From Mesorhizobium sp. SARCC-RB16n (lineage in GTDB: Bacteria; Pseudomonadota; Alphaproteobacteria; Rhizobiales; Rhizobiaceae), in contig NZ_ML703279.1 in NCBI RefSeq assembly GCF_008520305.1, forward strand, positions 186,001 to 250,000: a stretch of DNA of 64,000 nucleotides, in the 5' to 3' direction. The notes under the pieces were generated by a model. The model did not search any database and was not told where the DNA came from. It saw only the letters and a program-made list of their open reading frames with translations. The position numbers and the translations under genes were made by a program. Shown in pieces: positions 4,438 through 23,075 of this stretch (positions are counted from its first letter, which is position 1; each line of letters opens with the position of its first letter).

Positions 4438-4704
4438 CTACCGGTGCGGACGATCCTCTGCGAGAACGTTGTAGAGCACACAACACGCCACCAACGAGGC
4501 GACGCCGCCTAAGAGATCACTCGCCGTCAAACCAGAAAAATAGACGAATTCAAACGCCGACACGGTGGCCTCTCTGCCTTGGAAATCGACCAAGAAAGAA
4601 CCGTTAGAAGGCTCTGATGTTCCGCTCCGGTTGGGCACTTCTGGACTCTTCGTCGCGATGGACGCATTCTGTCCCTGGGGGAGCATGGGGGCGTGGACAA
4701 ACAT
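4438..4704 (-). CDS. Possible small membrane protein
   Basis: An 88-residue frame starting MFVHAPMLPQG. Its only protein-like feature is a C-terminal hydrophobic segment (LLGGVASLVACCVLYNVLA) that could be one membrane helix. It overlaps the proposed start of the divergent SNase gene by 12 bases, which counts against it. It may be a chance frame. Between 4041 and 4437 I see no gene. Confidence 0.22.
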   Translation of the reverse strand: MFVHAPMLPQGQNASIATKSPEVPNRSGTSEPSNGSFLVDFQGREATVSAFEFVYFSGLTASDLLGGVASLVACCVLYNVLAEDRPHR

Positions 4705-5523
4705 CGGCACGACAACCGGTCTGATCAGTGGCGAAGGCGAACTGGCGCCAGGCGCTCGCGCGCACGCAGATGGGCGAGCGTCCCGCTGCGCCTGATCGCT
4801 GTCACGGTCACTGCGGCCGGCGCATTGGCCGCGCAGACGCTTCTGCAGCACAGCGACCGTTTGCCGGAGATCAACCTGTCGAACTTGCTCGGGCCGAAAC
4901 CAGGACCGATCGTCGGCGTGGCGTCGGTCATCGACGGCGACACGATCGAGATCCACGGGCAACGGATCCGCTTCAACGGCATCGACGCGCCGGAGAGCCG
5001 GCAGTACTGCGACGATGCCAAGGGCTTCGAATACCCCTGCGGCCGGCGATCAGCCGAAGCGCTCGACTCCTTCCTGGCGGCCTCGAGGCCAGTGCAATGC
5101 ACGTTCGTCGATTGGGACCGATATCACCGCTTCGTCGGGGACTGCCGGCGTGCTGATGGCGCCAGCGTGGAGGGGTGGATGGTCGAGCACGGCCAGGCTC
5201 TGGATTGGCCGCGCTACAGCCATGGCGCCTACGCACAGCAGCAGGCGAAGGCGGAAGCAGCAAAGGTCGGCCTGTGGGTCGGCAAGTTTCAGGCGCCTTG
5301 GGAGTGGCGCGCGGAGCATGCCGACGGCACGGCGCCGTCGCGCCAGCCGCTCGGCATCATCAGCCGCAGGCTTGTCGTGCAGAGCGGCTATCCATGCGAG
5401 CCGCGGCGAACGTGCAAGCAAATTGGTTCGTGCGACGAGGCCCAATGGTATCTGCAGAACTGTTCATGGGGCGGAAAGCTGGATCGGGACGGCGACGGCG
5501 TGGCGTGCGAGAGGCTGTGCTAA
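4693..5523 (+). CDS. Exported SNase-like nuclease with Excalibur domain
   Basis: A 276-residue protein. Residues about 30-50 form one hydrophobic segment (signal or anchor) after a basic N-terminus. Residues about 75-200 are a staphylococcal-nuclease (thermonuclease) domain: IDGDTIEIHGQRIRF, then GIDAPE with the catalytic glutamate, and DRYHRFVG with the expected arginine. The last 45 residues form an Excalibur domain (CKQIGSCDEA, LDRDGDGVAC), a calcium-binding module with paired cysteines. Likely an extracytoplasmic, calcium-dependent nuclease. The start is a GTG; no in-frame ATG is available nearby. SNase/Excalibur proteins are common cargo of rhizobial islands and plasmids. Confidence 0.85.
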   Translation: MDKHRHDNRSDQWRRRTGARRSRARRWASVPLRLIAVTVTAAGALAAQTLLQHSDRLPEINLSNLLGPKPGPIVGVASVIDGDTIEIHGQRIRFNGIDAPESRQYCDDAKGFEYPCGRRSAEALDSFLAASRPVQCTFVDWDRYHRFVGDCRRADGASVEGWMVEHGQALDWPRYSHGAYAQQQAKAEAAKVGLWVGKFQAPWEWRAEHADGTAPSRQPLGIISRRLVVQSGYPCEPRRTCKQIGSCDEAQWYLQNCSWGGKLDRDGDGVACERLC

Positions 5524-5719
5524 AGCCCCAATCCTCAACCACCCTTCCGCCGGCGCCTTTGCCCCGGCTGAGGTTGTGAAAGAAGGGGTTCTTGCAATGG
5601 CAGCGACGGCTGACCTCTAGAAAGCTTACCGCCGGAAATTGGCATCGGAGGTAGTTCTGGCTGCTTCCGTAGTTCGTCGGCGGAGGGTCGCCGCTGAGGT
5701 AGCTTACGCGCAACCGAAC

Positions 5720-5806
5720 GAGCCGCCTGTGCGGCTGCGACAATGTTGAGAGCAGTTAAAATCCCAAGGTCTGGGCCGCCGATGAGATCAGCCGCACAGG
5801 CGGCTC
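5720..5806. repeat. 17-base perfect inverted repeat
   Basis: gagccgcctgtgcggct at 5720-5736 matches the reverse complement at 5790-5806, separated by 53 bases. The right arm lies inside the integrase-derived coding sequence (codons for SAAQAAR), so the left arm looks like an inverted copy of it. It could arise from rearrangement at the broken 5' end of the integrase gene. Confidence 0.7.
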
Positions 5807-6903
5807 GAAAAGAGGCGCGTATTTTGATCGGTCGGATCGCGCAAGGCGACAACCCTGCGGAGACAAAACTCCTCGACGCTAAAACGATCACTATCAAAGA
5901 ACTCTGCACCCGATATCTGGCTGATTGTGAAGCTGGACTTGTGCCAGGCAAAGGCGGCCGCCCTAAGAAGCCATCGACCATGGAGATCGACGGTAGCCGT
6001 ATCAGCCGCCACATCCTTCCGCTTGTCGGGAACCGGAGAGTGACCGAGATCACGTCGGCAGACATTGCCAAATTTCTGCGCGACGTTGCCAACGGCAAAA
6101 CCCGGGCCGACATTAAGACAAAGAAGCGAGGCCGGGCGATCGTTCGGGGAGGGATTGGCACTGGCTCGCGCGGCGTAGGCCTTCTCGGCGGCTCTTCACG
6201 TATGCCATCCGGGAAGGCATCATCGAAAAGAACCCGGTTCACGGCTTTCGTAAACCAAAAGATCGCGTCCGTGACCGTCGTCTGACGGAGCGTGAGTATC
6301 GAGCGTTAGGCAAGATTCTCGCGGACGCCGCTATCGACCCGCAGTTTTCAACGGCCGCCAAAATGGCGCGGGCACTCGCTATGACGGGATGTCGACGAGG
6401 CGAGATTATTAATCTGCGAATGGGCGAGGTCGATGTTCAGCGCAGCTGCATCAGGCTTGAGGATTCCAAGGAAGGCGCATCCACCCGGGCTATCGGCTTG
6501 CCTGTGGTCGAGTTGCTCCAACCGCTATTGTCCGACCATGAGGCTGATTTCGTGTTTCCCGGTACCGAGGAAGGGAAGCCATTAGTCGGCTTCCAAAAGC
6601 TGTGGGAAAAGCTCGTCAAAGACACACCACTTGAAAGCGTTACACCCCACGTGCTTCGTCACAGCTTCGCGAGCGTGGCAAACGATCTCGGCTTTACCGG
6701 GTCGACGATAGCTGCCTTGGTGGATCACGAGCCGTTACATTCACACCGTAGACACGGCGCTCGTAATGGCAGGCGATACAGTCGCCAGCTACATTCAGGC
6801 CTTGCTTGATGGAGTTAAGTTCGAGCGCGCAAATTATGCGCTCGATCTCAGTGCACGTAAGGATGCAATGCGGAAATTTTTGACGACGCACACGGCTCCT
6901 TGA
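5743..6903 (+). pseudogene. Broken tyrosine integrase
   Basis: The reading frames together spell a phage/ICE-type tyrosine recombinase. The arm-binding/core N-terminal part runs to about 6170; a frameshift near 6190 moves to the frame carrying LFTYAIREGIIEKNPV and the catalytic domain (CRRGEI, HVLRHSF). A second lesion near 6720 removes a few codons after AALVDH and shifts frame again; the last piece contains SRYIHTVDTAL with the tyrosine and ends at TGA 6901-6903. The usual N-terminal DUF4102-like segment is also missing. It is therefore non-functional and marks an older integration event. The inverted repeat at 5720-5806 overlaps its 5' end. Confidence 0.85.
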
Positions 6904-6930
6904 GGCAATAGGACCCATTGGGTACGGCGA

Positions 6931-7581
6931 TCAGTGATCTTTAAGACCGTGCTCGCTCAGGAGCTTTCCATACCGGTTCAGGTCGTACATCGTCCCGCCG
7001 CTGTCTTCCTCCATCATAAGGCCGCCATCAATTCCCACGTCAACGAGCAGGCCGGCCGAAAAGAGCGCTGAAGCGGCGTCCTTGTCCTTTTGTACGCCCT
7101 CTTTGAAATCAAGCAGGAACCTCAAGTCTTCCGAAAAAGCCCTGTCAACGATCTTGGCCAGGCGTATCGCCTCATCCAAAGAGAGCTTGCCGTTGGCAGC
7201 CGCCGACATTACTCGGGCTATTATTTCAGGTTTCTTCATGTCGTCAGCGCGATCTAAAAGCAGCAGCACCGTCTCGCCGAATTCAGCCTTTTTTCCCTTT
7301 TTTTCCAAGTTCGCGATAAACGCCTGGCGGTCCTCTAAAGGCGTTTTCTCAAAGGTATTCAGGAAAGTAGCCACCTTTTTCTGAAACAGCCAATCCCTGT
7401 AGGCGAGCCCCCCTCGCGCGAGACCGACAAGAGCGCCCAAAATAGGAACTCCATCCAGCGCGCCGGACGATATGGCTGCGTCCAATCCGATGTCGGCGGC
7501 AGTGGCGGCCACATCGACAAGCTTTTCGCTCGCGACAGAATCCGCGAATGCAACAGGTAGGTTTTTCGGCTCGTCTTCCAT
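6931..7581 (-). CDS. Unknown protein with hydrophobic hairpin
   Basis: A 216-residue protein starting MEDEPKNLPV, preceded by an AGGAG site. Residues about 30-60 form a hydrophobic stretch with GVPILGALVGLARGGLAYRDWLF, like a membrane or lipid-interacting hairpin. The rest is helical and charged, with repeated DRA/LDEAIRLAKI helices. No catalytic motif is seen. I recall loosely similar proteins near phage-defence genes but cannot name a family. The TIR gene at 8742 is on the same strand upstream, with two other genes between. Codon use is less GC-biased than in backbone genes, consistent with transfer. Confidence 0.7.
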   Translation of the reverse strand: MEDEPKNLPVAFADSVASEKLVDVAATAADIGLDAAISSGALDGVPILGALVGLARGGLAYRDWLFQKKVATFLNTFEKTPLEDRQAFIANLEKKGKKAEFGETVLLLLDRADDMKKPEIIARVMSAAANGKLSLDEAIRLAKIVDRAFSEDLRFLLDFKEGVQKDKDAASALFSAGLLVDVGIDGGLMMEEDSGGTMYDLNRYGKLLSEHGLKDH

Positions 7582-7744
7582 ACGCACTCCTAGCACGCTG
7601 TGAGGGCTATATAGGGATTGACTCTTCGGGACGAAGTAGGATAATTTTCCTATATCCCATTTCGCCGTCGAAGCTGCTGGGCTGCAGTCGAGCCAGCCCT
7701 TTCGGGAGTGGACGTGCTGAAGACGGATACGGTGCGACAAGGCC

Positions 7745-8236
7745 CTAGGCGACGACGCCGGAGTGTTCGTAGGCGAAATACCGCGCCTCGCGTTTTAGCA
7801 GCGCAATCGCCCAATCCTCCGTCGAGCCGCCGCCGCTGGCCGCGCATTTCCAGATGCCGTATTCTATCTCGGCCATCATCCCGGTGGCCTTGTTGTGCAG
7901 AAAAACAGGGTACGGCGTGTCGACCGTCGGGACGCGCGACAGAAAGACCTCAACCCAATCCCCGACGCTGGCCGGCGCCCTAAACCCTCTAAGCTCGACC
8001 GGCAGCAGGCCACCAGCTGTGGATAGGATCAGGCGGGTGCCTGCCAGCTCGACGCCCCCCTCGATGGACGTGATCTCCGCCGTTTCGTGAACCTTTCCCA
8101 GCACTGCGGCGTGGTCGTAATGCGCTGTGCTCGGAGCCGGTGGGCGCCGTCGCCCTTGGGGGTCAAGCCTCCACCCGATAAGCAAGCGCTCCCAATACGA
8201 TAGCGGGCTTCCCCATGGCGGTGTCGGTGCAGGCAT
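7745..8236 (-). CDS. Hypothetical protein, possible beta-rich domain
   Basis: A 163-residue protein starting MPAPTPPWGSPLSYWERLL, with a GGGGGA ribosome site. The N-terminus is proline-rich. The middle looks beta-rich (AEITSIEGGVELAGTRLIL, VELRGFRAPASVGDWVEVFL) and the C-terminus is helical. No signal peptide or family is recognised. It is 163 bases upstream of the hairpin protein on the same strand and divergent from the gene at 8333. Confidence 0.65.
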   Translation of the reverse strand: MPAPTPPWGSPLSYWERLLIGWRLDPQGRRRPPAPSTAHYDHAAVLGKVHETAEITSIEGGVELAGTRLILSTAGGLLPVELRGFRAPASVGDWVEVFLSRVPTVDTPYPVFLHNKATGMMAEIEYGIWKCAASGGGSTEDWAIALLKREARYFAYEHSGVVA

Positions 8237-8332
8237 TTTATCCCCCGTGCGGGACGCCAATCTAGCCGACGGATTTTGATTCCACCAACCCATACCTATC
8301 TATGGGGAAATCCCAACAACGGAGGCTTCTTC

Positions 8333-8647
8333 ATGGGTTGGCAGGGCTACTGCTCTTCGAATGAAATCAAGGAACAGGTCAGGGTGCAGGTCATGGAATC
8401 GCCCCAGGACCCCGGCACGCCACCGCCGAAGCTCAAGGCGGGCGATACTGTCCCGGTCGAGTTCGGCAACAACGCCCGCACACGTTTGGACGTGGTAGCG
8501 GAGCTGCCTGCCGATGAAGTGGTCGTGAAAACGCCTGACGCCACGCGCTGGAGGATGTCGAAGGTGAAACCCGGTGAGATCGGCTCCGCCTACGATCCTC
8601 CGCGCCGCATGGTCGCTCAAGATTGGGCTATTCGGGAAAAGCTCTAG
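8333..8647 (+). CDS. Small hypothetical protein, SH3-like segment
   Basis: A 104-residue protein starting MGWQGYCSSNEIK, placed after a ggagg site eight bases upstream. The central part (LKAGDTVPVEFGNNARTRLDVVAELPADEVVVKTPD) alternates like a small beta barrel. It is divergent from the gene at 7745 and convergent with the TIR gene. No family is recognised. Confidence 0.6.
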   Translation: MGWQGYCSSNEIKEQVRVQVMESPQDPGTPPPKLKAGDTVPVEFGNNARTRLDVVAELPADEVVVKTPDATRWRMSKVKPGEIGSAYDPPRRMVAQDWAIREKL

Positions 8648-8741
8648 GGAGCGACCATGCACGTTGGCCTGACAAGAAGGCGGGCGCCGGTGACACAGCG
8701 CAAACCACGCGGGGTATTCTCAAACTTGTCGCGGCTTGCGA

Positions 8742-9782
8742 TTAGTAAAGGACGTTGTCGTCCCAGAAACGGAAATTGTCTGGATCGGCACCCTTTCCCT
8801 TCGATTTGAGCCAGTCGGCTATCTGCGGAAATTCCAAAAGAAGCGCCTCCATCTCACTGATCTTTTTATCGAAGATCTGGACGAAGTCGTCGCTCCAATT
8901 CCACGTGTTTGACTCTGGGTCGTATATGTCCCTCTCCATCGCGAACTCGACCTCTGAGGCGTAGTTCACGCTGTCGGGGCGGGATTGTTTTCCCAAGTGA
9001 TCGAGGATCAGTTGCCGTTGGATATACGATCCGCCGAGCTTCGGCGCGAGCCTCTGAATCTCGCTAGTAAGGGTTTGAAATTTTCCTTCCCAGCCGCTTT
9101 TGTCGAATTCCTTCTCCAGCTTCGACACGTCCTCTGGAGCCTTGAGACTTTTCAGTGCCTTAATATACTTTTCGGCCTTCGTGAGGTCATCTTCAGCGAG
9201 GTTTCGGGCATTGACCGCATCGTCGCGCTCTTTCTCGACTTTCTTAAAATCAGCAATCGGAACGTTGGTCGACTTCCCAATGTCACCCTTTGCATCCTGC
9301 CATTTTTTTTGAAACTCACGCATAGCCCGCTGGCGGATGCCAACCGCAGCCGGCGCAAGTTCTAAAGAACTTGAGAGATCCTCCAGCATCTGCGCCAGCG
9401 CGTCTTCATTATCCACCATCACGCCGACTGTTCCCAAGAGGGTGGCATCTATCACCCCAAATCCACTTGGTGGCACGACGACGGGAAACCGATTAGTGCT
9501 TAGCGCCCACGCTGCGCCAAGTTCTGCCATACAGAACGCGCTTTCCCGATAAGCTGGTGAAATCAGCGCTATCACCGACTCCGTAGTGACGATTTCGGCC
9601 TTGATGGCATCGACGAAGTTCATTCCTTTCGGAGCACCCTGCCCCTCCAGACTCGATACGAAGATTTCGTGCGAGCCGATACCAAGCCACTTGATCAGGA
9701 GCGTTTCGAAGGCCTCTACCAGCGGGCCATCCGCAGAAGAGTGGCTTAGGAAGATTTTTCGGGTCTTTGCTGGCATTTCCAC
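8742..9782 (-). CDS. TIR-domain protein with coiled coil, likely NAD hydrolase of a defence type
   Basis: A 346-residue protein. Residues 8-130 are a bacterial TIR domain: KIFLSHSSADG at the N-terminus and FCMAELGAAW with the glutamate (E87) expected to hydrolyse NAD. Residues about 150-230 are strongly charged and heptad-like (KKVEKERDDAVNARNLAEDD), probably a coiled coil. The last 100 residues are unique, with a Trp/Asp-rich tail. TIR proteins of this layout act in abortive phage defence, where a sensor part triggers NAD depletion; the trigger here is not evident. It is cytoplasmic. The gene lies in island DNA near other unknown genes. A second ATG two codons in is possible as start. Confidence 0.85.
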   Translation of the reverse strand: MEMPAKTRKIFLSHSSADGPLVEAFETLLIKWLGIGSHEIFVSSLEGQGAPKGMNFVDAIKAEIVTTESVIALISPAYRESAFCMAELGAAWALSTNRFPVVVPPSGFGVIDATLLGTVGVMVDNEDALAQMLEDLSSSLELAPAAVGIRQRAMREFQKKWQDAKGDIGKSTNVPIADFKKVEKERDDAVNARNLAEDDLTKAEKYIKALKSLKAPEDVSKLEKEFDKSGWEGKFQTLTSEIQRLAPKLGGSYIQRQLILDHLGKQSRPDSVNYASEVEFAMERDIYDPESNTWNWSDDFVQIFDKKISEMEALLLEFPQIADWLKSKGKGADPDNFRFWDDNVLY

Positions 9783-10298
9783 GATCCTGACTGCTTGGGA
9801 TAAACTCGTGGGATATCTCTATCTTCAAAGGTTTGGAAGTGGAGTGACGAGCAAACCCGCCGCAGCGGCTCGTAACAGTACGGGCATGAGGAGCAACGGC
9901 TAAAGGGGCCACGTTCCGAACCGCCGTAGCCGAGAATTCCTTCGTGCCCGTCGTGGCGAGCCGCTTTGCCAAGCTGTCCAATTGGCTGACGACTGAGGCC
10001 TTGGAAGTTTTTCGAACCCCCTGCCTTGGGTCTCCAGTCGAATTGCGCGTCCTCATGGAGGACGCTTTGGCGTCTCGATCTGCAGTGATGAAAACTTGAT
10101 CGTTTCTCTTATTCCGGGGTTCGAGTCGCCGATAGTTGGCCGGGCATCGCGTCATAGCTTCCACTCTTTTCGACATGACTGCGCAAATTAAGATGGCGAC
10201 AGCTACGTCCAATAAGCCCGAAGATTTGTTCTATATCGAGCTTGCAGCTTAGGTGGGCTCACGGCAGTATTGCCGCTGTCGCTCAGGCGGAGGGGAAC
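9783..10298. other. Stretch without a supported gene
   Basis: A minus-strand frame is open from 10212 into the TIR gene, with some protein-like stretches (QLDSLAKRLATTGTKEF), but it has no recognisable domain and overlaps the TIR gene in another frame. I take it as decayed or non-coding. The region must contain the promoters of the divergent genes at 9782 and 10299. Confidence 0.4.
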
Positions 10299-12657: not shown

Positions 12658-13176
12658 ATGGGCAACGAAGATCAGCCCTCCTCTAGAGGAGCGTTCTTCC
12701 TACCATTGCTTGGCTTCGTTGCGCTTTTGGTTGTGTATAATATAGCGAATCCGCCGCCACCAGAGACTCCGAAAACCGCTGCGCAGGTGAAGCTTGAACA
12801 GGAGCATGCGGCGGAGCATGCGGCTGCCCAGGCGAAGCTTGAACAGGAACAAACTGCGCAGCGAGAAGCGCGCGCGAAAGCTGATCAACAAAGCCAAGAC
12901 CACCTCACGAACCTTTGCAAATGGGTGGACCTATGCAGGGAGTTTGGTGATGCTCGTCAGGCATGTGCCACTGCCGGCGATTTCCAAAACTGCCTCAATG
13001 TAAAGCTGGGCGATAATGCTTGGGTCATAGGCGACAACTGTTCAAACGATGGCAGTCTCATCAACCCTCAGAACGACACGCCGTCGAGGCTGGAATGCCT
13101 CGGCGCTACTGTAGAGGGTGCCGTGCATAACACCCCGCTAGGGGATGTCATACATGACGCCCTGCATAGCAAGTGA
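12658..13176 (+). CDS. Membrane-anchored protein with Ala/Glu coiled coil and Cys-rich end
   Basis: A 172-residue protein starting MGNEDQPSSRG. Residues 12-30 form one membrane helix (FFLPLLGFVALLVVYNIA). After a Pro-rich linker, residues about 40-80 are an Ala/Glu/Gln coiled coil with an internal repeat (KLEQEHAAEHAAAQAKLEQE). The C-terminal part has six cysteines and is probably outside the cytoplasm, where disulfides can form. No family is recognised. Ends next to a convergent gene. Confidence 0.6.
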   Translation: MGNEDQPSSRGAFFLPLLGFVALLVVYNIANPPPPETPKTAAQVKLEQEHAAEHAAAQAKLEQEQTAQREARAKADQQSQDHLTNLCKWVDLCREFGDARQACATAGDFQNCLNVKLGDNAWVIGDNCSNDGSLINPQNDTPSRLECLGATVEGAVHNTPLGDVIHDALHSK

Positions 13177-13419
13177 TTAGCTCATAAGTGCCTTGAAGGG
13201 CTTCGCATTGACGACAAGGTCTGGAAGACCGTTGACCACGGCACGATAGTCGTCTTCATCCTTGAGCATCAGAAATCCGCCGCCGATGAAGTAGCCGCGC
13301 CTGTCGAATTCTTCTGCGCTGCGCTTCTGTATGATCACGTAAAGCTGTCCGGTCCGCTCAATCATCTGGTCGACGACGAGACCGGTTCTTGATCTGATTA
13401 CGTCTGCTCTCCCCAGCAC
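13177..13419 (-). CDS. Small hypothetical protein
   Basis: An 80-residue protein, MLGRADVIRSRTG to PFKALMS. It has a strand-rich middle (GQLYVIIQKRS) and a helical end (DEDDYRAVVNGLPDLV). No family is recognised. Its stop abuts the stop of the convergent gene ending at 13176. Confidence 0.55.
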   Translation of the reverse strand: MLGRADVIRSRTGLVVDQMIERTGQLYVIIQKRSAEEFDRRGYFIGGGFLMLKDEDDYRAVVNGLPDLVVNAKPFKALMS

Positions 13420-13599
13420 TGCACCTAACGTCCTTGCGTTACCCGGCGCAACTCGTCGCCAACTTAAATCATTCTGGAATCGGGCGTTTGTTCATCCGCC
13501 TTCCCCCAGCAAGGCCGCCTAGATTAGCTTCGCCTGCGAAGCATGCTACCGTCCAGCCCCTTCTTGAGCCGCTTCTGGGAAATTGAGCCGAGTGCGAGA

Positions 13600-15519
13600 A
13601 TGGACGACCACGAGAGTGCAAGAAAATCCTTCGGCTCCGATCGCGCGCAACTTGTCTACGGGCGGCGCGACGATGGCGCGCTGGCCCATATTTCCGAAGT
13701 TCAGCGCGGTCTCGCTTGCGGTTGCAAATGCCCCTCATGTGGCCTTCGACTTGTTGCGCGATTGAAGGACGACCATGTAGTACCGCACTTCGCGCACAGC
13801 GACGGCGAGGCGTGCGGTGGTGGTCCTGAAACAGTCTTGCACCTGCTTGCCAAGGATGCGTTTCGCACCAATCCGAAGATGCTCCTACCGGAACGGCTCG
13901 GCCTACATAAGGGCAGCGTAGTGATGAAGCCGGGGCAGGAAGTCGAGACAGAATTTCAGCGCCTCGAATACACCGACCCAAAGAAGGTCATTCCGGACCT
14001 TTATGTTCGCGCGCTCGGCTATGACCTCTTCGTGGAGGTCGCGGTAACGCACGCCAGCGACGGCACCAAGATCCAGCGCCTCCAAGAGCATGGCACGATG
14101 GCTGTCGAAATTGACCTGTCCAAGTTGCCGAGAGACTCCGCACGCGAGCAGATCGCAGAAGCCGTCTTGCGATCTGCGCCGCGCCGCTGGCTATACCACC
14201 CAGGTATCGAAGCGGCGAAGGCGAAAAACCGAGCCGACGAAGAAGCCTGGCAGGCGGCACAAGCGACTCGGTTTGCCAATTATCAGGCCAGACATGAAAA
14301 GCGGGTTGATGAGCTAGCGAGCGGTTACGCGAAGGCCCTTAGGCAACTAGCTGGAGGACAGGTTACGAGCCCGCGCCTGGCTGAATTGCAAGCGGTCGGA
14401 CTGGCCCCGCATGTCGGTATCAAGATGGCGGGGTATGCCTGCTTCACAGTCCCGCCCGCAGTTTGGCAGGCCGTCATCTTGGCAGAGGTCTTCCACGACA
14501 AATGCCTTGGTGACGAGTTTCCAAAGGCGGTGCCGATCGCCAAGCATCTGGAAAGGCGTAATCTAATACGGCCACTTTTCCGGCGCGTGTCGCGCGAGGT
14601 GGCGGACGATACGGCTTTAGCCGAACCGCGCTTTGCTCCAGCGTGGAAAGCGATAGACAGTTACTTGCAGCATTTGCTCGGCAAGGACGTGTTGGCTCAC
14701 CAACGCTATGGCGTGATGCTGCAGAAGCATCTAGCCGACCAGTTGACCGCTCGCACGCTAGCCCAGAAACAGAGAACCGCTGCCATGCATGCGGTCGTGC
14801 AGAAGGTCGATTGGATCTTGGGCGAGCTTCCCGACGAAGAGCGCGGGAACATGACTGGCGAGTTGTGGCTTGATTCCGGCCACACCGAATCCGGCATGAC
14901 ATACCGGGCTGCGATCCGGGCCGACATCGAGGCGCCAAAGATCGCTGCCGTGATTGATGCCGTTTTCGCCATGCTCAGAGGGAATGGCCGACTTCCACAT
15001 GCCAGCGCTGGACTGCCTGTTGAGGGCGCAATCGAGCGCAGCAGGGGTCAGATCGCAAAACGAGCCCAAGACCTACGTGAGAAGCAGCTTCGGGAAGCGA
15101 ACCGACTTCGACAATCACGCCGTGACCGGTTTTGCATAGACGCTGAAACTGAACTGAACGGTCCTGACCTTGGCACATTTCTGAACACGAAACGCGACGA
15201 TCTGAGCGGAATGACGCCGTTGGAAGCGGTAGAAGACAGCGAGTCGGGACTGACCCGAGCGCGCGATGCGCTATCCGAGTTGGTGCGGCAGCGGGCAAGC
15301 GCAGCGGAAGCAGATGCCGAGCGAAAGCTATATCAAGAGATGATAACCGCCGACGCCGTACGCTCTTTGCCGCCAGAACACGTAGATGCCTTCCTAAACG
15401 GTCGGGATGACGATCTTGGACGGACCACGCCGCTCTTGTTTGCAAAGGACGAAAACACTTATCGCAATGCACTCAAAAAACTATCGGAATGGCAGCGTGA
15501 GTTTGGTGGCCCAGTATGA
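13600..15519 (+). CDS. CoiA-like protein with zinc motif and PD-(D/E)XK-type nuclease core
   Basis: A 639-residue protein starting MDDHESARKSFG. Residues 40-72 carry CGCKCPSC, then HFAH and a further cysteine: the N-terminal zinc motif of the competence protein CoiA family. Residues about 130-150 read IPDLYV...DLFVEVAVTH, the D133 and E146 of a PD-(D/E)XK-type nuclease active site, as in CoiA. The rest (about 220-639) is long, helical and specific to this protein, far beyond the usual CoiA length. An upstream ATG at 13543 is possible, but a related fragment at 19295 begins its similarity at the DDHE residues. The stop overlaps the start of the HNH gene (ATGA), so the two are coupled. A DNA-processing or defence role is an inference. 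Confidence 0.75.
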   Translation: MDDHESARKSFGSDRAQLVYGRRDDGALAHISEVQRGLACGCKCPSCGLRLVARLKDDHVVPHFAHSDGEACGGGPETVLHLLAKDAFRTNPKMLLPERLGLHKGSVVMKPGQEVETEFQRLEYTDPKKVIPDLYVRALGYDLFVEVAVTHASDGTKIQRLQEHGTMAVEIDLSKLPRDSAREQIAEAVLRSAPRRWLYHPGIEAAKAKNRADEEAWQAAQATRFANYQARHEKRVDELASGYAKALRQLAGGQVTSPRLAELQAVGLAPHVGIKMAGYACFTVPPAVWQAVILAEVFHDKCLGDEFPKAVPIAKHLERRNLIRPLFRRVSREVADDTALAEPRFAPAWKAIDSYLQHLLGKDVLAHQRYGVMLQKHLADQLTARTLAQKQRTAAMHAVVQKVDWILGELPDEERGNMTGELWLDSGHTESGMTYRAAIRADIEAPKIAAVIDAVFAMLRGNGRLPHASAGLPVEGAIERSRGQIAKRAQDLREKQLREANRLRQSRRDRFCIDAETELNGPDLGTFLNTKRDDLSGMTPLEAVEDSESGLTRARDALSELVRQRASAAEADAERKLYQEMITADAVRSLPPEHVDAFLNGRDDDLGRTTPLLFAKDENTYRNALKKLSEWQREFGGPV

Positions 15520-16405
15520 AGCGACGAACACGCTGGGATCGTTGCGGCCTATGCGGTGAGCTTCGGATCACCACTCGCGAGCATGTTGTTCCGCGGTCCC
15601 TCTATCCGGCATCGAAGTCCAACAGTAGATTCCAGCGCATCACGATCGCAGCATGTGTCACATGCAACAATGGCACCGCCGACGACGACGCGCATTTCCG
15701 AAACGTCGTCCTTGTGGCCGGCGAGCCAAATGAAGCGGTCAAAGAGCTATGGTCTGGTCCCGTGCGCCGGGGCTTCGCACAGGTAGACGGCCATCGTCGC
15801 GCTCGCGACATCTTCGATCTTATGCAACCCGCGCCGGACGTTGGACCAAACCGGTATCGCATTTTCCCGGCTGACGACCCGCGCATTCTCCAAATCGTCC
15901 GCAAGATCATTCGCGGTCTGTCACGGCACCATGAACTTGCCTATCCGCTCAGCGACGGTCAGGTGTTTGCTGACGTAATGCGGCAAACGATACCGGAGGA
16001 AATTCTTGCCGCGATGGAACATAAGGAGGCCGAACCCGATGTCCTCCAATACGGATATCTACGCCTAGCAGGCTGTTGAAGAAGTATCTCGTTTGGCTTT
16101 GAGGATCGCCTCGTCGCCGTTGTGGTAGGCGAATGTGATCTCGATCGAGCCGTCGTCAAGCAATTCAGCAGAGCCATCGCCAGTGACCTCGTCCATCTCG
16201 TCGAAGCCGGCCCATGTGAAGAATACCATATTGGGGCCATAGCTGAGATCGAGGCCGGCTTGCAGGGCGCCAAAGGCGATCTCACCGTGGTTGCCCGCTT
16301 CGATGGTGATAGTGGCGGGATCGACAAGGTCGAGATGATCGCGATCCCAAAGATCGGCCTCGACGATCCGCCAGCGGCCGATCAATTTACAACCCGCCGG
16401 GGCGG

Positions 16406-17551
16406 TCATGTCGACACCGCCAACAGCTTGGGCAGCCGCACTAGATTGTAGGCGGCGGCGCTGAGGGTGAAGGCCCATCCGACGCGGTCGCGGCCACGCA
16501 ACTTTGTCTTTGCCTGCCCTGCGACCATCTTGATCCATCCGAACGCCTCCTCAATGCGTTTGCGGATGCGCTGGCTGACGGCATAGCCGCCGTGCCGCGT
16601 CGTGCGCCCGTCGATCGCCGAGCGACGGCCGCTGGTGTTCTGCGCCACGTGTGGCGTCACCCTCATCGCGCGCAACTCGTTGATGAAGTCCTCGGCGTCA
16701 TAGGCCTTGTCGGCGCCGAGCGTGATTGCCCGCGGCCTGTCGGCATAGGGTTCGATCATGTGCAGCGCCGCCACCCGTTCGGCATGCCCGTCGGCTTGCG
16801 TCAGGCAAGCATCGACCAGCAGGCCATGGCGGTTCTCCATCAGCCCATGCCCCATGAAGCAGAGCTTCGCCTCCTTGCCCCGCCCCTTGCGATAGAGCCT
16901 AGCATCCGGATCGGTGGTCGATGCATGCGTCTGGTTAGATCGCTTCTGGCCATGGAAGTCTGCCTCGGCATTGCGCCCGCCGCCCTCTGACGGCGGCTCG
17001 CCAGAGCCATCCGTCGGGTCTTCGCCCGACCCGTCCTTCGGCTTCACGCTCTTCATCGATGCCCACGCCTCGATCAGCGTGCCGTCGACCGAGAAGTGAT
17101 CCGTGGACAGAAGCTTCTTCACCTTGGGTTGCGCCAGGACAGCGCTCAGGAACTTCGCCGCGATGTCGCCCTCAAGCAGCCGGTCGCGGTTCTTCGAGAA
17201 CACCGAATGGTCCCAAGCCAGATCGTCGACGCCAATGCCCACGAACCAGCGGAACAGGAGGTCGTATTCCAGCCGCTCCATCAAAAGCCGCTCCGAGCGG
17301 ATCGAATAGAACGCCTGCAAAAGCATCGCCCGCAACAGCTTCTCCGGCGGGATCGATGGTCGTCCGATCGGCGAATACAGCGCCGCGAACTCACGCTCCA
17401 GCGTCGACAGGGCTTCTGTCACGATCGTCCGGATCGCACGCAACGGATGATTGCGCCGAACCCGGGCCTCAAGGTCCACGTAGCTTATATGAGGAGTGTC
17501 AAGGGCTTTTAGGGCTCCGCTTTTTGGGTTCGTTGGTTTTGCGGTATCCAT
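16406..17551 (-). CDS. IS5-family DDE transposase
   Basis: A 381-residue protein starting MDTAKPTNPKSG. The N-terminal DUF772-type domain covers about residues 30-110 (GRPSIPPEKLLRAMLLQAFY). The DDE catalytic residues are D in HFSVDGTLIEAW, D in GADKAYD, and E in RIRKRIEEAFGWIK. The long Gly/Ser/Glu linker around residue 170 is usual for this group (IS5 or the related IS1182 type). The frame is open to 17695 upstream, but those residues come from the inserted IS110-side DNA. It has no frameshift. Confidence 0.9.
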   Translation of the reverse strand: MDTAKPTNPKSGALKALDTPHISYVDLEARVRRNHPLRAIRTIVTEALSTLEREFAALYSPIGRPSIPPEKLLRAMLLQAFYSIRSERLLMERLEYDLLFRWFVGIGVDDLAWDHSVFSKNRDRLLEGDIAAKFLSAVLAQPKVKKLLSTDHFSVDGTLIEAWASMKSVKPKDGSGEDPTDGSGEPPSEGGGRNAEADFHGQKRSNQTHASTTDPDARLYRKGRGKEAKLCFMGHGLMENRHGLLVDACLTQADGHAERVAALHMIEPYADRPRAITLGADKAYDAEDFINELRAMRVTPHVAQNTSGRRSAIDGRTTRHGGYAVSQRIRKRIEEAFGWIKMVAGQAKTKLRGRDRVGWAFTLSAAAYNLVRLPKLLAVST

Positions 17552-17559
17552 GGTCTGAG

Positions 17560-19025
17560 CCTGATTGCATGACGCGGCTCGTTCCCCGAGCCAGATCCAA
17601 CTTATATACGGTCGCTGTTCGAAGCAGCGGCACCAACATCCCGCTTGCGGCGGACAAGGGCTCAGGAGAACGAGACCATTCTGAGACAACGGCATTTGAA
17701 GCCACGCTACGTGCCGGTTCGTCCCCCTTGGATCCGCCAGGACTCATCAGGTCCTGGAAGATGGCAGAATTCGATGGGTGTAGCGCATCAGGCAACCGAC
17801 ATAATCGCGCCCTCGATGACAACGCCGGCGTTGACGTATTTCCACAGCGCCACGAGCAGCTTGCGGGCGAGCGCCACGATCATCGTCTTCTTCAGCCGGC
17901 CGTTGTTTTGCTTCACCCGCTCCTTGAACCAGAAGGTGAGCGCCGAGTGCGGCTGATGGCGCACCCATAGCCAGGCCATCTGGACCAGCGTCGTTCGCAG
18001 CGTCGGATTGCCGGATTTCGACACCCCCTGCTCGTGGTCGACCGAGCCGCTCTGCCAAGGTGTCGGTGCGAGGCCCGCATAGGCGGCAACTTGTCGTCGG
18101 TTGTCGAAGTGACGCGACAGCCCCTCCGACCACAGGACAGCGGCAAACTCCGGCCCGATGCCCTTCAGGTCGAGCAGCATCGCCGGTGCCGACGAGACAA
18201 CCTGCGTGACAGCGAGCATGGCATCGCGCTCGGCCTCGACTGCCTTGATCTGCTCGAGCAGCAGTTCGAGCCTGTCTAGTTCCCGGCCGACCTGCGCCTG
18301 CAGATGGGCCGGCAAGGGTCGGCCGTCGCCGGTCTTGAGCGCCTCCAATCTCTTCCGCCGGTCGCGGCGCAGCGGCTCGTAGCCGGACACGCCCTGGGCG
18401 AACAGCAGGCCTTTGACGCGATTGACGTGTCGCACACGCTCGTTGGTCAAGGCCTTGCGCTCACGCGTGACGCGGCGACGGTCCTCTTCTTCGGGCGTAG
18501 GCACTCGGAGCATCGCACACACCCGCGGCTCGCCTCGCTTGTAGGCCAGCAACGCCCGGACCAGCGCCTCGCCGTCGATCTTGTCGGTCTTTGCCCGGCG
18601 CCGCCGGCGCGAGGTCGCAATCGAGGCCGGATCGACGACGTGACTTTTGATTCCTTCGGCCTGCAGCACGCGATGGATCCAGAAGCCGTCGAGCCCGGCC
18701 TCCTGGATCACGATGATCGGAAAGTGCCGCCCGGTCCGCGCTTGCGTCTTCCTGTTGATGTCGGCAAATCGCGCCAGCATGCCGGCGACATCGCCGGCCG
18801 CCACCGCATGTTTCGACATCTTCTCGCCGCCACCCGGCGACAGCGAGGTGATCAACCATTTCGAGCGACTCAATTCCAACGAGACGAAAATTGCACCAAG
18901 ATCTGTGCGGATAGCGGTCGGCGCTTTGGGTTGGTGAGCTGCTACGGGCATGCTTGCCTCCAAGGATGTTGATTACGCGACCTCACTTTGCCACAGCGCC
19001 GGTCGCTATCCACTCTCCTCATAGG
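17560..19025 (-). mobile_element. IS110/IS1111-type element (approximate ends)
   Basis: The element holds the transposase at 17788-18963. IS110-type elements lack clear terminal repeats, so the ends are estimates: the right end lies close to 19025 and the left end somewhere between 17552 and 17700. Non-coding DNA is longer downstream of the transposase (up to 236 bases) than upstream (about 60), the layout of the IS1111 group, whose guide (bridge) RNA is encoded on that side. Confidence 0.6.
17788..18963 (-). CDS. IS110-family DEDD transposase
   Basis: A 391-residue recombinase. The N-terminal RuvC-like DEDD domain spans about residues 20-190, with QEAGLDGFWIHR and TDKIDGEALVR. The C-terminal Transposase_20 domain holds LKGIGPEFAAVLWSEG and the serine motif GVSKSGNPTLR. 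A second ATG (MPVAAHQPK) four codons in is possible. It appears complete and could be active. The enzyme works with a non-coding bridge RNA from the same element. Confidence 0.9.
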   Translation of the reverse strand: MEASMPVAAHQPKAPTAIRTDLGAIFVSLELSRSKWLITSLSPGGGEKMSKHAVAAGDVAGMLARFADINRKTQARTGRHFPIIVIQEAGLDGFWIHRVLQAEGIKSHVVDPASIATSRRRRRAKTDKIDGEALVRALLAYKRGEPRVCAMLRVPTPEEEDRRRVTRERKALTNERVRHVNRVKGLLFAQGVSGYEPLRRDRRKRLEALKTGDGRPLPAHLQAQVGRELDRLELLLEQIKAVEAERDAMLAVTQVVSSAPAMLLDLKGIGPEFAAVLWSEGLSRHFDNRRQVAAYAGLAPTPWQSGSVDHEQGVSKSGNPTLRTTLVQMAWLWVRHQPHSALTFWFKERVKQNNGRLKKTMIVALARKLLVALWKYVNAGVVIEGAIMSVA

Positions 19026-19294
19026 ATCTGAACAGTTCGCCCGTCTGTCCGTCCCCGCCCCGCACGATTCACTCCCACTCTTCGTGGTCAGAGTGAATCA
19101 CGAACCTGGGACTGTCGCGAGCCCTTTTTCAACAGCCTGCTAGACGAGCCCCACGGCCTTTCGTCAGTGTGGGTTCTCCGGTTCTTTCAGCGGACAACCT
19201 TCATCGGCTTTGTGTTCGCCAACGAAGCCGCCCGACAGAAGCACACGGGTGCGCCAGGACCAGACAAGCACTGAAGGATAACCACGTGATATTG

Positions 19295-19353
19295 AGTTGG
19301 ATCACGAGAACGCGAGAAAATCCTTCGGCTCCGATAGCGCGCAACTCGTGTAA
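19295..19353 (+). pseudogene. Fragment of the CoiA-like gene 5' end
   Basis: The frame reads LDHENARKSFGSDSAQLV followed by TAA, closely matching residues 3-19 of the CoiA-like protein (DHESARKSFGSDRAQLV). At DNA level about 45 bases are nearly identical to 13613-13655. It ends abruptly, 25 bases before the HEPN-like gene. It shows an old duplication or the scar of a gene replacement. Confidence 0.75.
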
Positions 19354-19377
19354 TCTTTTCGCTTGAGGAAGAGCGTT

Positions 19378-20055
19378 ATGACGGGACCCATGGAAAGAGA
19401 CTCCGAAGAGAATGAGGCTGAGCGCAGCGAATACGTCGTTGTGCCTGAAGAGGCGATTCAGTTCCTGCCAGCCGAATGGCGCGATGCTCTGCAATCGAAG
19501 TTGGAAGATGGCCGAGCGATTTTGGAAGCCGTCGATAGCGACATCAAGGGTCTGGTTCGACTCATTAACGCCTCACAGGTGATGACGAGTCTTAGCTATA
19601 TTCACCAGCGTCTCGCAAAGGCGGACTTCAATCTAACTACTGAGGCGTTTCTAGAGCACGACATGCTCACGTCCGCCTTCGTTGTCACGTACGTCCGACT
19701 TATTGACGGTGGCGTGGGAAGCGGCGTCTCACGAGACGCTCTTCCTACGCATCTTCGTCAGGCACACGACGAAATCATCGAATTTCGAAACAAGCGGTTC
19801 GCTCACAATGCTGGTCATCGGTCGGTTGATGGGACGCTCGACATCCAGTTCGGCGATGGCCGTTTTGAAGTAAATGTCACCATGCGGATGGGCTACTACA
19901 TCCGGGGCGCAAACGAATGGGGAGAGTTAGTAACTTTCCTGAACGGTTTGATGTTCGATCGGCTTACCAAGCTGCTTGAACGGTTAAAGAACAAAACCGG
20001 ACATGACTGGACCTTTCCGAGCGGGCCGCCGCCCGCTTGGATCGATTTCCCATAG
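19378..20055 (+). CDS. HEPN-like protein of unknown function
   Basis: A 225-residue, mostly helical protein starting MTGPMERDSE after an aggaag site. Residues 137-143 read RNKRFAH, which fits the RX4-6H motif of HEPN ribonuclease domains, at the end of a long helix (LRQAHDEIIEF). The C-terminal part (FGDGRFEVNVTMRMGYYI) is strand-rich. HEPN proteins are often RNases in toxin-antitoxin or phage-defence systems, but the motif is short and other helical folds can mimic it. The location just beyond the interrupted CoiA-like/HNH pair is suggestive. No partner antitoxin gene is adjacent. Confidence 0.6.
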   Translation: MTGPMERDSEENEAERSEYVVVPEEAIQFLPAEWRDALQSKLEDGRAILEAVDSDIKGLVRLINASQVMTSLSYIHQRLAKADFNLTTEAFLEHDMLTSAFVVTYVRLIDGGVGSGVSRDALPTHLRQAHDEIIEFRNKRFAHNAGHRSVDGTLDIQFGDGRFEVNVTMRMGYYIRGANEWGELVTFLNGLMFDRLTKLLERLKNKTGHDWTFPSGPPPAWIDFP

Positions 20056-20422
20056 TGACAATGGAAAACGCTCGCATTGAATAGGTTGTTGTCTTTCCGC
20101 CCCAAACGCCAAAGGGCAGAGATTTTCGGCCAAGCCAACCAGTTTAGGCGGCCCTACGTGGTACGGACAATGGCGGGCGACGTAGCGCAGTAAGTCATTG
20201 CTTTTGCTTGATTATAGTGGTTGCGCCGCAGTTCGACGCGGACTGAACCATCAGCCCGAGCACGTCGGTCTCGCAAGCAAGCGGCGATGACCCGAGAGGG
20301 ATCGGTCTTAGGGTACCTCGAACACACGTCCGACTGCTTCCGTGGTGCTTCCGCGACGCGTTTCCCGCCCTCTTCTCGCGGAAATAAGGCCTTGCTAACC
20401 AACTGTTTTTACAGTATAAAAA

Positions 20423-20468
20423 TGGCGCACCCGACAGGATTCGAACCTGTGACCTCTGCCTTCGGAGG
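20423..20468 (-). pseudogene. 3' fragment of a tRNA-Arg(CCG) gene
   Basis: On the minus strand the DNA matches the 3' half of tRNA-Arg: anticodon loop CTCCGAA, 3' anticodon stem GGCAG, variable loop, T arm (ACAGGTTCGAATCCTGT), then GGGTGCGCCA. The 5' half is absent; the sequence loses all match just before the loop. A 3' fragment like this is what an integrating element carries or leaves as an att site. Confidence 0.85.
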
Positions 20469-21140
20469 ACAAAGCAGCGGCTTCTCAGATTCGGAGATGG
20501 GCTGGGCTCGCTCTCACATCTCCACGGCAAAGACGCACTGGCGTAGAGTTACCGCCAACTGGATGGGAGAAGGCCATCCTCGATCCCCGCGCCGGCCACC
20601 GGCGGCGCTCAAAGGAACAACGGCGTATAAACCGCAGTCCTGCGCGCGTCCGCATCACTGGACGGCTGTCGCGCGCAGGACGGAGGAAATTCGCCCCCGC
20701 CGCGGACGGTGAACAGGGCAGCCGTAGGAGCGTCAGCATAGCGCCGGCCGCAGGACGGGACGCGGGACCGACTGTCCCCGTCCGCGGTGGCCCGCATGTT
20801 GTATAAATTTGACCTGTTGGAACGGCTGCGACTGGGCGCCCGATCCGGCTGCTGGAGTATCATCCGAAATAGCGAAGCCGGAATCGGCACTTCGATAAGT
20901 GGGGGGAAAGGCGGTAGCGCCCTACCGATACGAACCCCCGAGATTTGCGATCAGGAAGTTCTCCCGGCCGATTGTCCGTCCGATTTGTACGCCGCCGCCT
21001 CCCTTTGAGCGAAGTGCCCAACGAGACGGCTGTCGCGCATGCTTATAGTCGCTAGATGAACCGAACAATCACCATCACTGGGACAACTGCATGCGGATTT
21101 TGTTACGGCGACGGTTTACGGTTCCCAAGTCGAGTGTTCT
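20469..21140. other. Stretch without a supported gene
   Basis: Open frames here are Arg/Pro-rich and lack starts or domains. The last 80 bases must hold the promoter for the excisionase-like gene at 21141. The stretch 20056-20422 is equally empty. Confidence 0.4.
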
Positions 21141-21701: not shown

Positions 21702-22892
21702 ATGGCAAGACCATTCAAGGATCCCCGCTACCCAGGCGTCTCCTCGCGCGTCAAAAACGGCAAACTATTTTATCGCTATAGGGCAAAAGGCCAGCCCGAA
21801 GTTCGACTTCCCGGCAAGCCCGGTGATCCAGAATTCGAAGCTGAGTATCAAAATGCGACGCAGGGTCTCTGCAAAAAGGCAGCGATCATCGATCTGCCTG
21901 GTCGGGCGCTACCAAGGACGTTCGGCCACGCCGCGCGCCGGCTTGAGACCACGATGGAGTGGCTGGATTTTGACGAAGCAACGCAGCGCAAGAACGCGCG
22001 GCTGATCGAGCGCTTTCTCAACCTCAAGGTCGATCCGAAATACCCGCTTACCTGGCGCGACACTCCTGTCGAACACCTCGACGCAGATCGGCTTCGCACG
22101 ATCATCGAGGGCATATTTAGCACCAACCGCACCGTCGCCAAGCACATGTTGGTCGCCATCAAAAAACTGCTATGGGTCGCGACCGAGATTGAGAAATGGA
22201 TCAAGCCGCAAGGCGATCCTTCCCTATCCATCCGCGTGCGCGTGCCCAAATCGTCCAAGAACCCTGCTTGGCCGATCGCGGTCCGCGAGAAGTTCGAGGC
22301 GCGACATCCAATCGGCAGTGCTGCACGTACCTGCTACGCACTGGGCTTTTGGCTTGGAAATCGGCGCGGCGATATCGCCGCCTTGGAGTGGGACGACCTT
22401 GTCACCGAGGAGATCGAATTGTTCGACGGCTCGCTGGAGTTAATCGAAGCCTTTGATTTCCGTCAGAAGAAGAACCGCAATCGCCATGGCGGGAGGGAGA
22501 TGTTCATTCCTGTTGTTGACAAGCTGGCGACGGCCTTGAACACGCTCGACCGCTCGCAGGGCGGCACGGTGTTAAAGAATGGGTACAATCGCGCGTTCTC
22601 CGAAAAGAGCCTGACCGGCATGATGCAGCACTGGACGCGCCAAGCGGAAATTCCCGACGGCTACACGCTTCACGGACTGCGTCGCACCTTCGGCACATAC
22701 CTTGCTGAATGCAATGTCCAGGCGCGCGCCATTATGGAGGCAATGGGACATTCCTCGATGACTGTAACGGACGACTATGTGCGTGAAGCAAACAAGAAGC
22801 GGATTGCGGTGGATATCGCTCGTGCCATCAATGAGCGCGAAGCCAAACGCGATGCGATGAAGCAACGAGCGGTCCTGCGAGTCGTCAAGTGA
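21702..22892 (+). CDS. Tyrosine integrase of the island
   Basis: A 396-residue tyrosine recombinase preceded by a ggagg site. The N-terminal arm-binding part is followed by a core-binding domain (about 80-185) and the catalytic domain (about 190-370). Catalytic residues are visible: an Arg at 221/222 (GNRRGDIAALEW), H324 and R327 (HGLRRTF), H350 (MGHSS) and nucleophile Y359 (VTDDYV). It is complete, unlike the broken integrase at 5743. It is transcribed toward the tRNA-Ile gene, 107 bases away, which is therefore its likely attachment site. Confidence 0.93.
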   Translation: MARPFKDPRYPGVSSRVKNGKLFYRYRAKGQPEVRLPGKPGDPEFEAEYQNATQGLCKKAAIIDLPGRALPRTFGHAARRLETTMEWLDFDEATQRKNARLIERFLNLKVDPKYPLTWRDTPVEHLDADRLRTIIEGIFSTNRTVAKHMLVAIKKLLWVATEIEKWIKPQGDPSLSIRVRVPKSSKNPAWPIAVREKFEARHPIGSAARTCYALGFWLGNRRGDIAALEWDDLVTEEIELFDGSLELIEAFDFRQKKNRNRHGGREMFIPVVDKLATALNTLDRSQGGTVLKNGYNRAFSEKSLTGMMQHWTRQAEIPDGYTLHGLRRTFGTYLAECNVQARAIMEAMGHSSMTVTDDYVREANKKRIAVDIARAINEREAKRDAMKQRAVLRVVK

Positions 22893-22946
22893 TCAAACCG
22901 AGCCGGAACAAAGGGTGGCCGATGTCGTATGGCCGGGCCCATAATG

Positions 22947-22966
22947 GGCCCAAAACGTTTTGGGCC
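22947..22966. repeat. 20-base perfect palindrome
   Basis: ggcccaaaacgttttgggcc is its own reverse complement. Just before it lies a second inverted repeat, gggcccataatgggccc at 22935-22951. Both sit between the integrase stop and the tRNA-Ile 3' end, so they could be integrase or accessory-protein binding sites in the att region, or a terminator for the integrase. Confidence 0.75.
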
Positions 22967-22999
22967 GAGGTCGGTTTTCATCAATAAAATCAATGGTTA

Positions 23000-23075
23000 T
23001 GGTGGGCCCGGAGGGACTCGAACCCCCAACCAAGCGGTTATGAGCCGCCGGCTCTAACCATTGAGCTACAGGCCC
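23000..23075 (-). tRNA. tRNA-Ile (CAT anticodon, lysidine type)
   Basis: A full 76-base cloverleaf on the minus strand including an encoded CCA. The acceptor GGGCCTG pairs with CGGGCCC; the anticodon loop CTCATAA gives CAT. The arm GGCGGCTCATAACCGCTTGG is that of the tRNA-Ile2 read as AUA after lysidine modification, and not an initiator or elongator Met tRNA. Its 3' end faces the integrase, as expected when an island uses the tRNA 3' end as attB. Confidence 0.92.

Follow-up and report, generated by a model that had tools for sequence, protein, structure and literature searches.

An IS110-family element of IS1111-type layout nested in an IS5-family element within a Mesorhizobium HNH-type gene, and the candidate guides of its relatives

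IS4321 and IS5075 are reportedly IS1111-family elements that target the ends of Tn21-type transposons. The inner element described here would likewise be a guided insertion sequence aimed at another transposon, but their target is a terminal repeat whereas the target in the clade of our element is IS transposase coding sequence. The element family and the guide mechanism are already known from IS1111 elements with a seekRNA (PMC11187229) and IS621-type IS110 elements with a bridge RNA (PMC11208160). In the IS110 group the guide RNA is mostly encoded before the transposase gene, in the IS1111 group behind it (PMC11208160). The subterminal inverted repeats of IS1111 elements are given as usually 11-13 bp (PMC11187229) or as 7-17 bp (PMC11208160). 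In this group the element extends asymmetrically past the repeats, by 7 (or 6) and by 3 bp. ISRm19 of Sinorhizobium meliloti is an IS110-family element in REP sequences (PMC1525189). It shares with our element the family and specific targets in rhizobia, but targets REP sequences rather than transposase genes. Among the literature matches listed, none, judged by title, dealt with IS110 or IS1111 elements aimed at transposase genes.

We analysed a window of 64,000 nucleotides, i.e. the whole stretch of DNA, from Mesorhizobium sp. SARCC-RB16n. Our reading, with a probability of roughly 0.87, is that two insertions built the locus: an IS5-family element into an HNH-type gene and a probably guide-directed IS110-family element into the IS5-family element.

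Two nested elements and their empty sites

The interrupted gene carries conserved Cys/His/Asn core columns, which we take to be the motif named HNH. Its 5' part (15516..16064, plus strand) holds codons 1-183 including this HNH-like core, and its 3' part (19143..19274, plus strand) holds 43 codons and the stop. Copies of CTAG are found at 16065..16068 and 19140..19143, both from the sequence itself and from the alignment with an empty allele. The pieces, counted in place by arithmetic on the window sequence, give a rejoined frame of 227 codons (15516-16064 followed by CTA and then by 19143-19271; the stop codon occupies 19272-19274), and the outer element sits at codon 184 with the last 43 codons severed. 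The sequence-only reading had rightly described a nested insertion in an HNH gene, the CTAG direct repeats, the 12-base perfect inverted ends and the restored 227-residue frame, but it had started the 3' frame at 19144 instead of at the GAC of 19143. It noted neither the target-matching blocks of the inner element nor the loss of the native start of the outer transposase gene.

The empty allele of the outer element is found in a contig of a Mesorhizobium MAG (L001), which was located with the 5' part of the gene alone and is 82.6% and 81.1% identical to the window on the two sides. The blastn alignment stops at window position 16068 (L001 6553) and restarts at 19140 (L001 6550). The two alignments overlap by four bases on L001, so the shared bases are the duplicated CTAG. 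The L001 protein runs unbroken across the junction (...GYLSLDEPHGLSSAW...). It is the uninterrupted protein that the sequence-only reading had proposed to look for in relatives, and compared with it both window pieces are free of stops and frame changes, which bears out the earlier statement that the gene has no other lesion.

The outer element (16069..19139, minus strand) includes the inner one and ends in terminal inverted repeats at 16069-16084 and 19124-19139 (CAGGCTGTTGAA), perfect over 12 bases and with one mismatch over 16; it starts CAGGCTGTTGAAGAAG at 16069, and the far end is the inverted copy with this one mismatch in 16. Its transposase (16406..17551, minus strand) has 381 aa counted from the ATG at 17551 and matches the NCBIfam model of the IS5 family (NF033581) with 265.6 bits against a cut-off of 140. 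The element thus has both a DDE transposase and the terminal inverted repeats with short target duplication expected of the IS5 family. Elements of this family on rhizobial plasmids, such as L004 of Mesorhizobium sp. AR02, share its transposase family, its ends and its CTAG flanks; the window copy differs in being interrupted and in having a replaced transposase start. The native N terminus (VRGGDGQTGELF in L004) is swapped for sequence of the inner element, and the frame stays open to the ATG at 17551, which lies inside the inner element.

The inner element (17486..19027, minus strand) is 1542 bp long and its borders are given by the uninterrupted L004, where window position 17485 joins 19028; CT occurs at both borders in the window and once in the empty site. 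Its transposase (17788..18951, minus strand) matches NF033542, "IS110 family RNA-guided transposase", with 224.4 bits against a cut-off of 140, and has PF02371 and PF01548 above cut-off, i.e. the DEDD and Transposase_20 domains of the IS110 family. With 387 aa it is longer than the 330-350 aa typical of IS1111 transposases (PMC11187229). The layout is that of the IS1111 group. The transposase is of the DEDD type with GLAPTPWQSG fitting the GL-P----S(T)G motif of the IS1111 C-terminal domain, and about 300 bp of noncoding sequence lie behind the gene and about 75 bp before it, which agrees with the seekRNA elements (PMC11187229). The element also belongs to the RNA-guided recombinase family that includes the IS621-type elements, but its candidate RNA is behind the gene, unlike the mostly-before position in the IS110 group (PMC11208160). 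This noncoding region (17486..17787, minus strand) contains a conserved fold at 17591-17767. Subterminal inverted repeats, also shared with the seekRNA elements, are at 17488..17496 (transposase-distal end, plus strand) and 19015..19023 (other end, plus strand); the repeat is a perfect 9 bp in the window, differing in this from the seekRNA elements (PMC11187229), and 12 bp in the relative L007. One base at the border, where the extensions beyond the repeats would be measured, is ambiguous. Over 13000-20600, Rfam gave no match at gathering score; of the three weaker matches (E 0.37 to 0.48), one lies over the nest.

Variable blocks and target sites across the clade

The noncoding region of the aligned inner-element copies has two variable blocks, and as in the seekRNA elements (PMC11187229) both match the target. 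In the window, the reverse complement of block 1 (17705..17714, minus strand, GCACGTAGCG) agrees with the adjacent target in 8 of 10 bases. Block 2 (TTGTCTC, 17683..17689, minus strand), which corresponds to the other target side, matches at only 2 of 5 bases ungapped and fits better only if a one-base bulge is allowed. The two-block arrangement of seekRNAs and bridge RNAs is thus seen across the clade and for block 1 of the window, and weakly for its block 2.

The scan covered the window and 61 further loci (62 sequences); the blocks are present in 54, a recognisable right end in 45 and a recognisable left end in 39. After removal of duplicates, 35 right-side rows with 26 distinct guides and 28 left-side rows with 22 distinct guides were kept. 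The reverse complement of block 1 was compared with its own flank in two registers, and the higher score was taken. The averaged agreement of block 1 is 7.15 of 10 by guide (n=26), while shuffled targets give 3.83 (sd 0.27), and 7.0 by row (n=35), with 3.70 after shuffling. For block 2 it is 4.05 of 5 by guide (n=22; shuffled 1.34, sd 0.26) and 4.14 by row (n=28; shuffled 1.40). None of 20,000 shuffles attained any of these four averages, and an earlier, smaller guide set was concordant. The own flank scores highest, ties included, for 18 of the 26 block 1 guides, and four guides match poorly (L006 and L046 with 3, L033 and L119 with 4 of 10). In a consensus fold of 29 copies both blocks lie within a loop closed by a conserved stem, with 913 of 951 pair cells standard; since the fold came from the same alignment as this count, the support is mild. 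Overall, the sequence evidence suggests that the target site of the inner element was picked by a candidate guide RNA from the noncoding region, and such an RNA would be made and used in the cell. Different guides pair with different targets across the clade, which is in line with the natural retargeting described for the relatives ISEc11 and ISXne4 (PMC11187229). One guide is found at two places, matching the L028 site at 9 and the L039 site at 5 of 10 bases; L039 may be an off-target insertion.

At least 11 of the 26 guides have a transposase family in the flank. Two guides, differing by one base, are in IS5 targets, four are at three sites in targets of the DUF772 group, and one each is in IS630-type DDE_3, IS110, DDE_Tnp_1, DDE_Tnp_1_4 and rve targets. 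The family names IS630, IS1380-like and IS3 are our reading of these flank Pfam domains. The four guides of the DUF772 group (L028, L030, L043/L110) are all different and use three sites of one transposase family. No transposase was found in the flank for the other 15 guides; Pfam was run on the longest border-touching frame of some of them, so 11 is a lower bound. Counted by rows, 14 of the 45 right flanks have a transposase at the border, and copies that share a guide are sometimes without one, e.g. L039, L119 and L122. A background control gave 0 matches in 129 kb; it is weak because the flanks themselves supplied most of its queries. In L027, a relative of the inner element has inserted into the transposase gene of another IS110-family element. 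Compared with the seekRNA IS1111 elements (PMC11187229), the clade has many more natural guides, with at least 11 of 26 in transposase genes.

The IS5 targets give a view of repeated insertion. The inner site was compared in 30 IS5-family loci, with the window as an additional filled copy and L092 left out as it is the same place as L065: 26 are empty, one is filled (L065, in genome G138) and three are unreadable. In a tree of 23 rows the window copy groups with the empty L070 (100/100) and the filled L065 with the empty L079 (100/99). The filled copies are in separate supported clades together with empty ones, so the element was inserted at the same nucleotide at least twice; that the empty copies lost the inner element cleanly is less likely. 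Inner elements of this lineage also form partial nests in IS5 sequence in G008, G011 and G041, where the right end and most of the IS5 element are lost. These three have one guide and one target side in common, and G138 has a one-base variant of the guide. G146 has a remnant of a nest.

We tentatively consider, at somewhat less than even odds, that this IS1111-type clade may be an RNA-guided transposon parasite specialised on the transposase genes of unrelated insertion sequences, namely IS5, the DUF772 group, IS630, IS110, the IS1380-like group and IS3, which would offer harmless multicopy landing sites and in which it would disable or rewire the host element.

The interrupted gene and its surroundings

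We queried the 5' and 3' pieces of the HNH-type gene separately in the homologue search and obtained nine distinct loci, counting L020 and L005 once as evidently the same plasmid (both 364,822 bp) and leaving out three matching plasmid records (two more of Agrobacterium vitis and one of Rhizobium, 30% coverage). The 3' piece directly follows the 5' piece in eight of the nine (L001, L002, L003, L017, L018, L019, L020 and L023), the only exception being L021, which is a fragment. A single open frame is found in six (L001, L002, L003, L017, L018 and L019). The homologues in the remaining three (L005/L020, L021 and L023) are broken or fragmentary, which suggests that the gene is often lost: a frame change divides the NZP2077 copy (L005/L020), and the A. 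vitis copy (L023) consists of two pieces with no annotated gene. The HNH gene is present in 8 of 146 genomes of the genus of L001.

PADLOC matched about 50 residues of the HNH core only (PDC-M01B, E 6e-5; PtuB, E 0.003), and gave no full-length match to the PtuB (Septu) or PDC-M01B models. Neither the HNH gene nor its CoiA-like neighbour is above the Pfam or NCBIfam cut-offs. The predicted structure of the intact L001 homologue, from a 4-row alignment, has a mean pLDDT of 37.4, too poor to judge. A search of solved structures with the homologue gave nine weak matches, the best to a neuraminidase (E 0.03) and one to a ribosomal protein (E 0.95), which we took as chance.

The CoiA-like gene (13543..15519, plus strand, 658 aa) overlaps the HNH start with its stop, can be aligned with relatives from about 13600 and is 79% identical between the window and L001. 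Its Pfam matches to CoiA_N (15 vs 26.3 bits) and DUF7828 (13.6 vs 25.7 bits) are below cut-off, some of its distant homologues bear the annotation "competence protein CoiA family protein", and the solved-structure search with this protein gave no matches. CoiA-like genes occur in 26 of 146 genomes of the genus of L001. The coupled pair proposed from the sequence alone holds in the window and L001, where HNH directly follows the CoiA-like gene, and more loosely in G142, where it follows three other genes, but it is not general: HNH is near the CoiA-like gene at two of the 11 CoiA-like loci examined (L099, which is the L001 locus, and L018). At the other nine it is absent within about 1.5 kb, and the genus search found no HNH match anywhere in their genomes. 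In G142 (L018:5984-10672, minus strand) the last of the three intervening genes overlaps the HNH start, and the five genes from CoiA-like to HNH could be one operon. A CoiA domain has been reported in the set of anti-phage systems selected in E. coli (PMC9519451), which makes a defence role of the CoiA-like and HNH genes possible.

A gene of unknown function (19378..20055, plus strand) follows HNH in L001 as well, with 81% identity. A 53-nt direct repeat (13606-13658 and 19300-19352, 87% identical) brackets the CoiA-like/HNH pair in the window and also occurs in L001. Its second copy resembles the 5' end of the CoiA-like genes of other genomes and hence looks like the fossil of a second copy. 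We also observed a degenerate tRNA-Arg at 20423-20492, whose 22.8 bits fall short of the Rfam cut-off of 29, and a tyrosine integrase at 21702-23075 that adjoins a tRNA-Met, of whose end no clear second copy is found in the window. The region 4693-10212 may be defence or mobile cargo, with a staphylococcal-nuclease/Excalibur protein (4693-5523), an integrase fragment (5743-6285) and a TIR-domain protein (8742-9782) matching spbK in PADLOC.

A probable history of the nest and its meaning

Based on these data, the IS5-family element would have entered the palindrome CTAG at HNH codon 184 and duplicated the four bases. The IS110-family element would then have entered it near the start of the transposase gene. 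Of the two sides of its target, one is complementary to block 1 and the other has the sequence of block 2. This second insertion would have taken away the native start of the outer transposase, and the open frame of that gene now begins within inner-element sequence. The function of the HNH gene was probably lost.

That the rejoined frame is chance and the gene naturally ends at the IS border is practically ruled out by the uninterrupted L001. The sequence-only reading had named homologues that stop at this border or lack the 3' segment as evidence against itself, but the 3' piece is in place in eight of the nine distinct loci, the exception being the fragment L021. A shortened HNH protein that still functions, so that the insertion is tolerated, is rather improbable: the remaining 183 residues do include the HNH-like core, but the lost 43 residues are conserved in the intact homologues.

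The order of the two insertions is less firm. The inner element could have entered the IS5 element elsewhere and the nest then moved as a unit into the HNH gene, which we consider unlikely but worth keeping in mind; the CTAG copies bracket the whole nest and are compatible with either order, and there are further partial nests with inner elements of this lineage. Against this, the outer transposase is without its native start and may be impaired, no plasmid record contains at least 80% of the nest at a single location, and the outer part in the window is nearest to the empty L070 (94%) and not to the filled L065. We give very little credence to an inner insertion without RNA guidance, in which the agreement of guides and targets would come from shared ancestry or chance. 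Some copies are orthologous (e.g. L034-L036) and kinship inflates the counts, but the agreement holds with one row per distinct guide and targets shuffled among guides, and differing guides go with differing targets, including three sites within one transposase family. Two successive insertions, the second one guide-directed, are thus our preferred reading.

The split HNH gene itself is ordinary, and the interest lies in the targeting series. In the inner clade at least 26 distinct guides form a natural series, each readable beside its own insertion site, and one nucleotide position in an IS5 family was hit repeatedly, with many empty copies of that family for comparison. With this series it can be tested in nature how IS110 and IS1111 elements gain new guides, and whether they prefer the coding sequences of other insertion sequences as targets.
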